Below, piece after piece: positions 50,632 to 54,878 of a stretch of 64,000 bases of DNA (position 1 is its first letter; each line of letters opens with the position of its first letter). The notes beneath the pieces are model-generated. The model did no database searches and had not been told where the DNA came from. It saw only the letters and a program-made list of their open reading frames with translations. The stretch is from Antarctobacter sediminis. GTDB lineage: Bacteria; Pseudomonadota; Alphaproteobacteria; Rhodobacterales; Rhodobacteraceae. Location: NCBI RefSeq assembly GCF_019218285.1, contig NZ_JAHUZG010000003.1, positions 186,001 to 250,000 of the forward strand, read 5' to 3'. Position numbers and translations under genes: made by a program.

Positions 50632-50838
50632 GTATGGGCTCCCTGCTCTGTTCCGGAGCGTCTGAATACCGCTGCGGGAAACCCACGCCAAGTGCTTCCT
50701 GAGCGTGAGGCACGGGCCCTCGGCACCGGCGGCGGAAATCGGCTTCACCCCATGCGCCGGGACCAATAGGATGTGAGCGCGAACATCGGGCAAGGGGACA
50801 GGGATGCGCGGCAAGGCTTGCAAGACGCGGGGGCAGCG

Positions 50839-51639
50839 ATGGCCCAAATCCTGATCCTGTCCAGTTGGGTCGCCCATGGGCATGTGGGCCTGTCCGCGGC
50901 TGCGCCCGTTTTGCAGGCGCTGGGGCATGGGGTGACGCAGTTGCCGACCACCGTGCTATCGAACCATCCCGGTTGGCCGCACGTGGCTGGCGCGCCCGTG
51001 CCGGTTGCACAACTTCAGGAGATGATCGGCGCGTTGGAGGCAAACGGCTGGCTGGCGGATCACGATGCGGTTCTTCTGGGATATCTGCCGACACCCGATC
51101 ACGTGGCGCTGGCCGTGGATCTGGCGCAGCGGGCACGCAAGGCCGGCGTGCGGGTCATTGTCGATCCGATCCTCGGCGACCTGCCGAAGGGCCTGTATCT
51201 GCCCGGCGATGCTGCGCAGGCGTTGCGCGATGACCTTGCGCCCTTGGCAGATGTGCTGACGCCGAACCTGTTCGAACTTGGCTGGCTCACCGATGCGCCG
51301 TTGGACAGGCTGGACAAGGTGCAGAAGGCGGCAGAAGTCCTGTTGGAGCGGACCGGCGAGATCCTCGTGACCTCGGCGCCGCTGGGGCAGGGGACCACGG
51401 GGGTCCTGCGGGTTACGGCGGACGGCGTGCGAAGCTTTCCGACCGCCCTGCGCAACGGTGTCCCGCATGGGGTGGGGGATGTGTTTTCCGCCCTGATCGC
51501 GGCGGGTCTGATGCCGGGGGCGGCGCTTGGCCACCTGTCCGCGTTGATCGATGCAAGCCTGCATCGTCCGCATCTTCAGATCGTGGACGCGGCCCCCAAC
51601 TGGATCCGTGCCACGCCCCTTCAGCCTTCGGAGACCTGA
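50839..51639 (+). CDS. pdxY: Pyridoxal kinase PdxY/PdxK family
   Basis: A 266-residue ribokinase-fold kinase. The N-terminus [27 protein letters not shown] and the substrate loop TVLSNHPGW are typical of pyridoxal kinases. The ATP/anion hole is [17 protein letters not shown] with the catalytic Asp in GVGD. It phosphorylates pyridoxal or related vitamers with ATP. It lies 3 nt upstream of the TIM-barrel/methylglyoxal synthase gene, so the two are probably translated together. Confidence 0.88.
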
Positions 51640-51642
51640 GCC

Positions 51643-52725
51643 ATGGCCTTTGATTTCATCCTGATGCTGACCGAAAATGACCGCACCATCCCGGACGCCC
51701 GCGCCCGGCTGGAAGAAGCGCTGGAAGGCGGGGTGCGCCACATCGGGTTCAAGGACGTTGGCCTGCCGCTGTCCGAACTCAAGGGGCTGGCCGCCGCGAT
51801 CCGCAGCGCCGGCGGGCGGTCCTACCTCGAAGTGGTAAGCCTTGATGCGGAAAGCGAACTGGCTTCGGCCCGGGCGGCGGTCGAGATTGACGTGGATTGT
51901 CTGCTGGGCGGGACGCGGGCGGGCGAGGTGACAGAGGTCACGCGGCATCATCCGCTGCGCTATTACCCGTTTCCGGGACGGATCACCGGGCATCCCAGCG
52001 TGCTGGAGGGCCCGGCACAGGACATCGTGGGCTCGGCCCGGAAACTGGCGGATCTTGAACATGTGCACGGGCTGGACCTGCTGGCCTATCGTTTCGACGG
52101 CGATGTGCCGGGCCTGATGCGCGATGTCTGCGCCGCGGTGGGCAAGCCGGTGATCATGGCGGGCAGCATCGACCGCGAAGAGCGTGTCGCCGCCTGCGCG
52201 CAGGCGGGGGCCGCGGGGTTTACCGTGGGCACGGCGGCGCTGGCCGGGGCCTTTCCGGCTGACAGCGCGGGTTTCGCGGCGCAGGTCCGGTCGATCCTGT
52301 CGATCACGGCGCGGTCGCGGGCCGTGTCCACGGCTCCGCGTCGATTGGCGCTGGTGGCGCATGACACGCGCAAGGCGCATCTGCGGGCCTGGGTCATGCG
52401 GCACCGTTCGGCGCTGTCGCGGCACCGTCTGACCTGTACCGGTGGCACGGGCCGGATGCTGCTGGAACTGGCGCCGGAACTGGACGTGCGCCGCCTGCAA
52501 CGCGGCGACCGGGGCGGTGACCAGCAACTGGGCGCGTTGGTCGCCACCGGAGAGCTGGATGCCGTGATCTTTTTCGCGGACCCGACCGTCCCGCATGGCG
52601 GCGACGTGGACCTTCAGGCGTTAACGCGTCTGGCCATGTTGCATGACGTGCCTCTGGCGCTCAGCTCTTCGGCGGCGGACATGCTGGCGGCCGCGCTGTT
52701 GTCGGTCGGGCAGGAAACCCCGTAG
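51643..52725 (+). CDS. Fusion of a TIM-barrel domain with methylglyoxal synthase
   Basis: A 360-residue protein with two parts. Residues about 1-222 have a TIM-barrel pattern, with phosphate-loop-like segments VIMAGSID (170-177) and GFTVGTAAL near 192, and share no clear family that I recognise. Residues about 233-350 match methylglyoxal synthase: ALVAHD (H240, D241), TGGTGR, GGDQQLGAL with D293 at the catalytic Asp position (D71 in E. coli), FFADP with D313, and H318. This part should convert dihydroxyacetone phosphate to methylglyoxal. The gene follows pyridoxal kinase by 3 nt. GGAG precedes the ATG. Confidence 0.85.
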   Translation: MAFDFILMLTENDRTIPDARARLEEALEGGVRHIGFKDVGLPLSELKGLAAAIRSAGGRSYLEVVSLDAESELASARAAVEIDVDCLLGGTRAGEVTEVTRHHPLRYYPFPGRITGHPSVLEGPAQDIVGSARKLADLEHVHGLDLLAYRFDGDVPGLMRDVCAAVGKPVIMAGSIDREERVAACAQAGAAGFTVGTAALAGAFPADSAGFAAQVRSILSITARSRAVSTAPRRLALVAHDTRKAHLRAWVMRHRSALSRHRLTCTGGTGRMLLELAPELDVRRLQRGDRGGDQQLGALVATGELDAVIFFADPTVPHGGDVDLQALTRLAMLHDVPLALSSSAADMLAAALLSVGQETP

Positions 52726-52814: not shown

Positions 52815-54878
52815 ATGCCCATCCTTCCCGTGCCACTCGCCAGTTTTGGCGAGGCCGCGACCGCTTGGCTGTTTGGCGGCAATATCCTTGCGCCCCGGAC
52901 CACGATGACCGGCCCCGGCAGCTATGCCGAGGCGGTCGAAACGCTGGGCGTCACCAGCCTGCGCTATCCCGGCGGATCGTTGACCGAAAGCTATTTTGAC
53001 CTGTCCAACCCGGATGCCTCGGTCGTCGTTCACAATGAAACCGGGGCGCAATCGGATTTCATGCCGATTTCGGACATCATGGGCTATGCCGCCGAAACGG
53101 GCCGTGCCGTCACCATTGTCCTGCCGACCCGGGACCAGATTTCGACCACCCGGTTCGACGACAATGGCGACCGCTACGCCGATGTCGACGAGGGCGAACT
53201 GCGCGCGTTCGTCCGCGACGTGGTCAGCGGGGAATATGGCGATGCACCCCTTGCCGGTTTCGAGATCGGCAATGAATACTGGGGATCGGGGCGGATGAAC
53301 GCGGTGGAATATGGCCGCGTCGCGGCCGAGATGACCCGCATCATCGACAGCGAGCTACAGGCCTTGCTGCCCCTCTACCCCGAGGCTGCCGAGGTCGACA
53401 TTCTGGTGCAGATGGGCACCAACTTCGGCGAGTCCTCTCTGGACGAAGCCTATGATGGTCTCAGCAATGCCGAGATCATAGCCGACCTGAACGCGACCTA
53501 CGGTCTGGACCTGCCGCCGGGGCGCGGCATTGACTGGACCGAGTTCAACAACCTGCTGGTCATGGAACAGTTCGATGCGGCGGAAATGGCCGCCGTGGAC
53601 GGTGTAATCGCCCATGTCTATTCGCGCGGTGCCGACATGCCGCACACCCGCTATTTCGCGCTGAACCAGATTCAGGACACCTGGATCGAGGAAAACCCGG
53701 ATCTGGAAATCCATGTGTCGGAATGGAACCTGCGATCCAATTCCGACAGCCTGATCGGCGATCAGGACTATGGCCTGTTTCAGGCGCAAGAGATGCTGGA
53801 ACAGGTCGAGGCCTTCATGGCTGAGGGGGTGGATGCGGCGCAGGTCTGGCCGCTGATCCAGAACACGCCTTCGGCGCTGGGGCTAGGCATGGATTGGTCC
53901 GGCAGCACCCCGCCGGGAGAGATGTTTGCCCTGATGTCGGCGAATATACCCGGCATGACCATGCTGGATTTCGCGCCTGCCGATCCGCGGGAAACCGAGT
54001 TTGTGGCTGCCGGGATCGAGGTTCACGGATTCGCCGACGGAGAGGATATGCTGCTCTACGTTACCGCGCCGCAGGGCGGCGGCGTGGTGCAAAGCGTGGT
54101 CGACCTTGCCCCGCTGGTCGCGGATGTCGGCGCGGTCGAAATCGTCGTTCTGGGCGTTGGTCCGGGACAGGCGCCGGGGGATTCCGGCTCGGACGCGGTT
54201 CTGGAACGGGTCGAGGCAGCCGAGGTCTGGACCGATGGTGAGCTGGACGTTGTTCTGAGTGAGGGCGAGATCATGCAGGTCCGCCTGATCGACGTCACCC
54301 CGACAGAAAGTTTCGCGCCGGTGTTTGACAGCACATCTCCCGAGGCCGCCGAACAGGCCGATCTGTCCGATACCCTGCCAGAGGTGGATTTGCCCGCAGC
54401 GCAGCCTGCCTTTGCCCCCACGCCAGAGGACATGCCGCAGGACCCGCCTGCCGAGCCGCCGAACATCGAACTGCCGGTGTTGGCACCGGGGGACACTACG
54501 CCATCCGGGCCAGATCCCGATCCGGAGCCCGTTTTCCAGATCTGGGGAGAGGGGTTTGCGCAACCCGCCGCGCCTGTCGCTCCCGTGGTGTCAAATCCAC
54601 TTGACCGCCTTGTCGAATTCGAGCGTCTTCTGCACGGGCCGGCCAATGATGCAGATCAGCGGTCGACCGCAGCGGCCCCCGAAGACGCGGCACAAGAGCT
54701 CTTGCGCCTTTTGGGGTTCGCACCGGGGTCCGAGCCGGATCATGCCGCGCCTGATCTCTTTGATGCTTTCGCGGAAACGCAAGAGCCAGAGGAGGATCTC
54801 TCCGGCACCCCCGACGACATGGGGTTGGGATGGGCCTTGGCGGTCATGCCGCTGCTGGCCGCCTCGGGCTTGGGTTAG
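52815..54878 (+). CDS. Large retaining glycoside hydrolase-like protein (clan GH-A type) with long C-terminal extension
   Basis: A 687-residue protein without a visible signal peptide. Residues about 15-390 form a TIM-barrel-like region with GFEIGNEYWG (acid/base E154) and IHVSEWN (nucleophile E303), the arrangement of GH-A retaining hydrolases such as GH39/51/79-type enzymes. A beta-rich region follows (about 400-475), then a Pro/Asp/Glu-rich linker (about 480-570) and a C-terminal part ending in a 17-residue hydrophobic run. It lacks RTX nonapeptides. It may be exported by a C-terminal signal. The polysaccharide substrate is unknown. Confidence 0.72.
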   Translation: MPILPVPLASFGEAATAWLFGGNILAPRTTMTGPGSYAEAVETLGVTSLRYPGGSLTESYFDLSNPDASVVVHNETGAQSDFMPISDIMGYAAETGRAVTIVLPTRDQISTTRFDDNGDRYADVDEGELRAFVRDVVSGEYGDAPLAGFEIGNEYWGSGRMNAVEYGRVAAEMTRIIDSELQALLPLYPEAAEVDILVQMGTNFGESSLDEAYDGLSNAEIIADLNATYGLDLPPGRGIDWTEFNNLLVMEQFDAAEMAAVDGVIAHVYSRGADMPHTRYFALNQIQDTWIEENPDLEIHVSEWNLRSNSDSLIGDQDYGLFQAQEMLEQVEAFMAEGVDAAQVWPLIQNTPSALGLGMDWSGSTPPGEMFALMSANIPGMTMLDFAPADPRETEFVAAGIEVHGFADGEDMLLYVTAPQGGGVVQSVVDLAPLVADVGAVEIVVLGVGPGQAPGDSGSDAVLERVEAAEVWTDGELDVVLSEGEIMQVRLIDVTPTESFAPVFDSTSPEAAEQADLSDTLPEVDLPAAQPAFAPTPEDMPQDPPAEPPNIELPVLAPGDTTPSGPDPDPEPVFQIWGEGFAQPAAPVAPVVSNPLDRLVEFERLLHGPANDADQRSTAAAPEDAAQELLRLLGFAPGSEPDHAAPDLFDAFAETQEPEEDLSGTPDDMGLGWALAVMPLLAASGLG

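Follow-up and report, generated by a model that had tools for sequence, protein, structure and literature searches.

The product of methylglyoxal synthase (MGS) is toxic, and the enzyme is as a rule a small protein that stands alone; in Escherichia coli MgsA the residues Asp71, Asp101 and His98 are catalytic. In barrel enzymes of the PcrB, TrpA, HisA/PriA and TrpF type, strands 7 and 8 hold the phosphorylated ligand. Pathways of the four-carbon acid-sugar type lead to dihydroxyacetone phosphate (DHAP), which is the substrate of MGS, or to its amino analogue. Bacterial L-threonate catabolism is described as ending in DHAP (PMC12540250). The gene studied here lies at 51643–52725 on the + strand of a 64,000-nucleotide stretch of Antarctobacter sediminis DNA (the window; contig NZ_JAHUZG010000003.1, positions 186,001 to 250,000), and encodes an MGS-type domain fused to a barrel. 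What is new is the fusion of an altered known enzyme domain to a barrel family for which no function was found in the literature searched. Being conserved, the fusion points to a likely partner reaction for MGS, and it makes the hand-over of substrate between the domains testable. In the account that we favour, with a probability of about 0.4, a three-carbon keto-phosphate is formed or rearranged by the barrel and then loses its phosphate in the MGS domain.

Domain layout and distribution of the fusion

The gene is a single open frame of 360 codons and a stop, in which the first-pass annotation of the window had recognized a barrel-like domain and MGS in one frame; both the coordinates and the arrangement were confirmed. 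AlphaFold2, Foldseek and conservation over 128 sequences delimit an N-terminal phosphate-binding (β/α)8 barrel (residues 1–225, 51643–52317, + strand). An interdomain linker (residues 226–232, 52318–52338, + strand) is placed by the domain limits from profile and PDB matches and AlphaFold2, and a divergent MGS domain (residues 233–353, 52339–52701, + strand) by NCBIfam, Pfam and PDB matches and by column counts. Modelling of the whole fusion protein with AlphaFold2, using 53 aligned fused proteins, gave a confident two-domain structure with a predicted local distance difference test score (pLDDT) of 91.8 and a predicted template-modelling score (pTM) of 0.88. The barrel domain modelled alone was likewise a (β/α)8 barrel (pLDDT 93.2, pTM 0.90). 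The predicted product is a two-domain enzyme, a barrel of an uncharacterised phosphate-binding family joined to an MGS-type domain. A genome search located a single copy of the fusion gene in the window genome, and no second MGS match at E up to 0.001.

The MGS domain scores 131.1 bits against NCBIfam PRK05234 (cut-off 84) and 29.4 bits against Pfam MGS (cut-off 24.1), while its 105.9 bits against TIGR00160 (MGSA) remain below the cut-off of 146.9. H240, K244, T266, T269, D293 and D323 are invariant in the 53 fused proteins compared, and D293 and D323 align with Asp71 and Asp101 of E. coli MgsA. D313 is Asp in 51 of the 53 and D241 is replaced by Asn in 14. The residues picked out in the first-pass annotation (H240–D241, D293 within GGDQQ, D313 and H318) all occupy the positions assigned to them. 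Two loops are changed relative to nine stand-alone MGS of the same family, in which TTG, SGP and PHD are all kept: in the fused domains TTG mostly reads GTG (G268 in 49 of 53), and SGP reads RG (R287 invariant). These nine are the ones used out of 21 stand-alone MGS matches, the remainder being without a locus, and in the tree they split from the fused MGS domains (57 rows) with support 100/100. The fused MGS domain would therefore constitute a distinct subfamily, and it is probably still catalytic.

The sample of fused loci comprised the best 80 of 88 relatives in the genome collection. Most come from Rhodobacterales, Stappia, other Hyphomicrobiales and SAR116, and two contigs bear the label Verrucomicrobia. 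In all 80 loci the barrel lies next to MGS, and in 79 the two share one frame; the sole locus with the MGS part out of frame (L108, 5001–6061) lies on a metagenome-assembled contig. A frameshift or assembly error at the junction, a concern raised when the gene was first annotated, is ruled out by this adjacency and common frame. The fusion is kept across several alphaproteobacterial orders. The fused barrels (18 rows) form one clade with support 100/96 and the fused MGS domains likewise cluster, which is most simply explained by a single fusion event; the barrel–MGS fusion apparently arose once in evolution. Both trees were drawn with midpoint rooting, for display only. The MGS tree leaves out the broken L108 domain and every fused MGS domain that shares more than 90% identity with a retained row; in the barrel tree the corresponding limit was 80%, with a forced set exempted.

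Within a family sample of 295 genomes the fusion was found in 17, the barrel without an intact MGS in four and a stand-alone MGS in 20, one of which (G125) carries the fusion as well; there was no clear signal among these 295 that the fusion replaces the stand-alone enzyme. The barrel, fused copies included, occurs in 31 of 385 alphaproteobacterial genomes and, in a phylum-wide search, in 12 of 398 genomes, and the viral contigs searched contained no relative. At one locus (L019, G282:C45:63840–64643) the match to the fusion protein extends beyond the end of the barrel through two TGA codons.

The barrel family and its operons

Among 128 distinct barrels, down to 34% identity, M8, T10, D13, T15, K37, E63, D145, A148, T194 and G196 never vary, while each of D38, D85, H117, R150 and S175 is kept in 127. 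We infer from this invariant polar Lys/Glu/Asp core that the family shares a single chemistry, for which K37, E63, H117 and D145 are the likely catalytic residues. The window barrel (residues 1–225) falls below every Pfam and NCBIfam cut-off, and its weak matches, to HisA, nitronate monooxygenase and similar models, all lie in its second half. Sequence similarity to solved structures spans about half a barrel. The structure prediction and fold search proposed in the first-pass annotation returned a confident barrel with neighbours from phosphate-binding barrel families. Nearest in Foldseek is PcrB (E 1.4e-7), followed by tryptophan synthase alpha, HisA/PriA and TrpF. For the best 50 of 1949 matches E extends from 1.4e-7 to 6.3e-6, with query-normalised template-modelling (TM) scores of 0.49–0.66 and identities of 13–20%, and no neighbour is close enough to name the barrel reaction. 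In agreement with the view that residues 1–222 had no assignment, the Pfam, NCBIfam, structure and fold searches identified no characterised domain in this region. Neither the barrel nor the barrel–MGS fusion was described in the titles and abstracts searched, in which coverage of subscription papers and of key DUF1537 papers was limited.

The HisA model was matched by 20 of 20 diverse barrels at E up to 10, and two of ten relatives scanned (L155 and L156) just pass Pfam HisA, with 25.3 and 25.4 bits against 23.6. Both of these matches are out of register, with residues 117–201 on profile positions 25–108, and the HisA matches are best read as a mark of the superfamily, not of HisA function. 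For HisA, TrpA, PcrB and NanE, no in-register match above cut-off over the barrel was obtained. MfnB (4-HFC-P synthase, PF04476) was a candidate first seen by eye, from what we took to be shared features (K in strand 2, AGSI in strand 7). It was rejected on profile comparison, where open reading frames from 11 of 15 family loci gave an hhalign probability of 5.6%, out of register.

The unfused barrels closest to the fused ones (group 1) comprise 15 loci: L111–L113, L115, L116, L147–L152, L175–L177 and L182. Three of these, L151, L152 and L182, belong to one genus and were all counted as group 1; by percent identity L151 and L152 fall in group 2, and the tree set L151 and L182 with group 1 (L152 is not in the tree). 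PdxA is adjacent at 10 of the 15 loci, a DUF1537 kinase is present at five and a cupin, separate or fused, at nine. Eight regions of the 12 genomes from the phylum-wide search were examined, four with group-1, two with fused and two with group-2 barrels. The four further group-1 loci contributed three PdxA, two kinase and two cupin genes, which gives totals over 19 loci of 13 with a PdxA-family gene, seven with a DUF1537 acid-sugar kinase and 11 with a cupin. The kinase and PdxA2 occur in the same operon as the barrel in seven of the 19, and do not so occur with the window gene. Most of the operon PdxAs are more similar to one another (47–93% identity) than to the window genome's own PdxA (38–47%), as would be expected of a PdxA2-like paralogue.

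Similar arrangements are found on plasmids, where tblastn gave 22 records with a barrel match. In five of the six records examined a LysR gene is followed by pdxA and the barrel. A four-carbon acid sugar kinase precedes pdxA in four of these plasmids (Roseateles, Aminobacter, Rhizobium leguminosarum and Gemmobacter, not Gluconobacter), and a cupin is fused to or follows the barrel in two (Aminobacter and Gluconobacter). The sixth, a mobilizable plasmid of Staphylococcus warneri, carries a distant barrel (L114, 10519–11181; about 34% identity) without pdxA or kinase. Threonine aldolase, alanine-racemase-type and other amino-acid genes adjoin some barrel operons. At two loci a cupin is fused to the C-terminus of the barrel in place of MGS (L112, 12001–13041; L020, 393–1427). 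As the partner is C-terminal in both kinds of fusion, this hints that cupin and MGS may both act on the barrel product. The family is widespread and its polar core strictly conserved, and its operons suggest an undescribed step in the breakdown of four-carbon acids or 4-hydroxythreonine.

The more distant barrels (group 2; 27 loci, with two further loci of the phylum sample outside this count) are 34–45% identical to the window barrel and form a separate clade with support 100/100 (23 rows, the Staphylococcus row left out). Their neighbour clusters were each named from one representative. On this basis a glycerol-1-phosphate dehydrogenase-like gene lies near five of the 27, and a glycerol-3-phosphate oxidase-like gene near L160, both representatives scoring below the NCBIfam cut-off. 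A class II aldolase and two PhyH oxygenases accompany the barrel gene at L160 (1–6675) and L163 (3544–6669), and the L160 cluster also contains an APH-type kinase and FAD enzymes, one of them the glycerol-3-phosphate oxidase-like protein.

Proposed function and competing readings

In the favoured account, the barrel would form or rearrange a small keto-phosphate; the likeliest compound is DHAP, or a phosphorylated four-carbon acid from which DHAP arises. The MGS domain would take this product and eliminate inorganic phosphate via an enediolate, with formation of methylglyoxal or a closely related compound. Together, the two domains would provide a committed outlet for a phosphorylated sugar acid or triose. 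A three-carbon keto-phosphate is the metabolite that best links the neighbours of the barrel, DHAP is the substrate of MGS, and this account is the most economical. The suggestion in the first-pass annotation that the barrel may use DHAP or make a triose-derived building block finds partial support here, from operons of unfused relatives that point to DHAP-type metabolism. More tentative is the proposal that the barrel founds an enzyme family completing DUF1537/PdxA-type catabolism of four-carbon acids (or of 4-hydroxythreonine), the bifunctional fusion handing the keto-phosphate to a re-specialised MGS for phosphate elimination.

Several observations weigh against the favoured account. Within flanks of up to 5 kb, pdxA was found at only two of the 80 fused loci, directly upstream of the fusion in L092 and overlapping its start in L106, and queries for the DUF1537 kinase and cupin gave no match in the same flanks. 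In the window genome the single PdxA gene and the three DUF1537 genes do not share a contig with the fusion, and many fused loci of Hyphomicrobiales and SAR116 type have housekeeping-like neighbours, as named by eye. Among the unfused relatives, L151 and L182 have PdxAs for which the similarity to other operon PdxAs barely exceeds that to the PdxA of the window genome. The three operon PdxAs tested pass the general NCBIfam pdxA model and stay below the cut-off for D-threonate-4-phosphate dehydrogenase, and the one operon kinase tested is below that for D-threonate kinase; the NCBIfam models therefore do not settle the pathway substrate. The group-2 neighbours seem to touch DHAP or glycerol phosphates, yet they are mixed. 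Finally, the ungapped column of His98 is G320 in the window protein, with His in none of the 53 fused proteins; with this histidine displaced or lost and two loop positions changed, the substrate of the MGS domain may differ from DHAP. As to the scarcity of pdxA, L106 branches off first within the fused clade, although support for joining the others is only 94/67, and we infer that the fusion originated within a pdxA operon and was later relocated.

The histidine bears on what the MGS domain does. H318, two residues from the G320 column, is His in 43 of the 53 fused proteins, and the HMMER alignment to E. coli 1b93 sets VPH over VPH, and thus H318 on His98, with compensating gaps. The other four of the five PDB alignments examined have no gap in the His98 region, in four proteins (L074, L079, L105 and L106) the loop is entirely without His, and the PDB match list includes the H98N and H98Q mutant structures. 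The full catalytic set of the first-pass annotation holds for the presence of the residues that it named; H318 is not clearly the catalytic His98, D323 had been omitted, and, with the histidine displaced or lost and the loops changed, the picture of an ordinary enzyme with a full set is not supported. A His98 column without His, the GTG and RG loops set against the usual motifs of the nine stand-alone MGS, and the TIGR00160 score below cut-off would together suit a phosphate-eliminating lyase for another phosphorylated substrate supplied by the barrel, with no methylglyoxal made. We regard this as unlikely, given that D293, D323, H240 and K244 are kept in all 53 proteins and that H318 may stand in for His98 from two residues away.

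The altered loops could also belong to an effector-binding regulatory module for the barrel, as in some other enzymes, and Pfam MGS does take in regulatory domains; with the catalytic aspartates invariant and true MGS enzymes as the best matches, such a role is improbable. Lastly, the Lys/Glu/His core beside a domain of a DHAP-using family might suggest a second triosephosphate isomerase (TIM) supplying DHAP to the MGS domain. This we consider very improbable, since 44 of the 46 barrel genomes searched, from 51 identified at that point, carry an ordinary TIM gene, the window genome among them, and TIM is not among the best 50 of the 1949 Foldseek matches. The same count rules out the barrel as a replacement of TIM. 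When 20 barrels were compared with Pfam at E up to 10, PF00121 (TIM) was not one of the 21 families listed, in a search in which the HMMER filters lose many weak matches.

Neighbouring genes and comparison with described systems

Three bases upstream of the fusion lies a gene for a PdxY-like kinase of the PfkB family (50773–51639, + strand), which passes the cut-off of Pfam PF08543 and falls below that of NCBIfam PRK05756. Judging from its relatives, translation probably begins further downstream than the listed GTG. In 27 of the 80 fused loci a PdxY-like match lies on the strand of the fusion and ends no more than 100 bp upstream of it; as the gene is the only close match in the window genome, it may simply be the housekeeping pyridoxal kinase. 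A glyoxalase-I-like match in the window genome (98 bits, curated cut-off 120) neither supports nor excludes methylglyoxal production. Downstream of the fusion, 52815–54878 (+ strand) encodes a 687-residue protein that is matched by no Pfam family at E up to 1 and gives only a weak arabinosylfuranosidase hint, and related genes occur near the fusion in L032, L034 and L059.

When compared with MgsA (EC 4.2.3.3; PDB 1b93, 1vmd, 2xw6), residues 233–353 align over most of the enzyme, with 36–48% identity in the listed MGS fold matches, and the equivalents of Asp71, Asp101, His19 and Lys23 are retained. The fused domain differs in being joined to a barrel, in the displaced or absent His98, in the changes of TTG to GTG and SGP to RGx, and in its branch separate from the stand-alone members compared. 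The barrel has the same fold class as PcrB/GGGP synthase, TrpA, HisA/PriA and TrpF and shows weak half-barrel sequence matches to them, but is only 13–20% identical in the listed matches and has an invariant core of its own. With respect to the four-carbon acid sugar pathways of DUF1537 kinase and PdxA2, unfused barrels occur in operons together with a DUF1537 kinase and a PdxA-family gene, the barrel being an extra gene in such pathways; the fused form usually stands without these neighbours.
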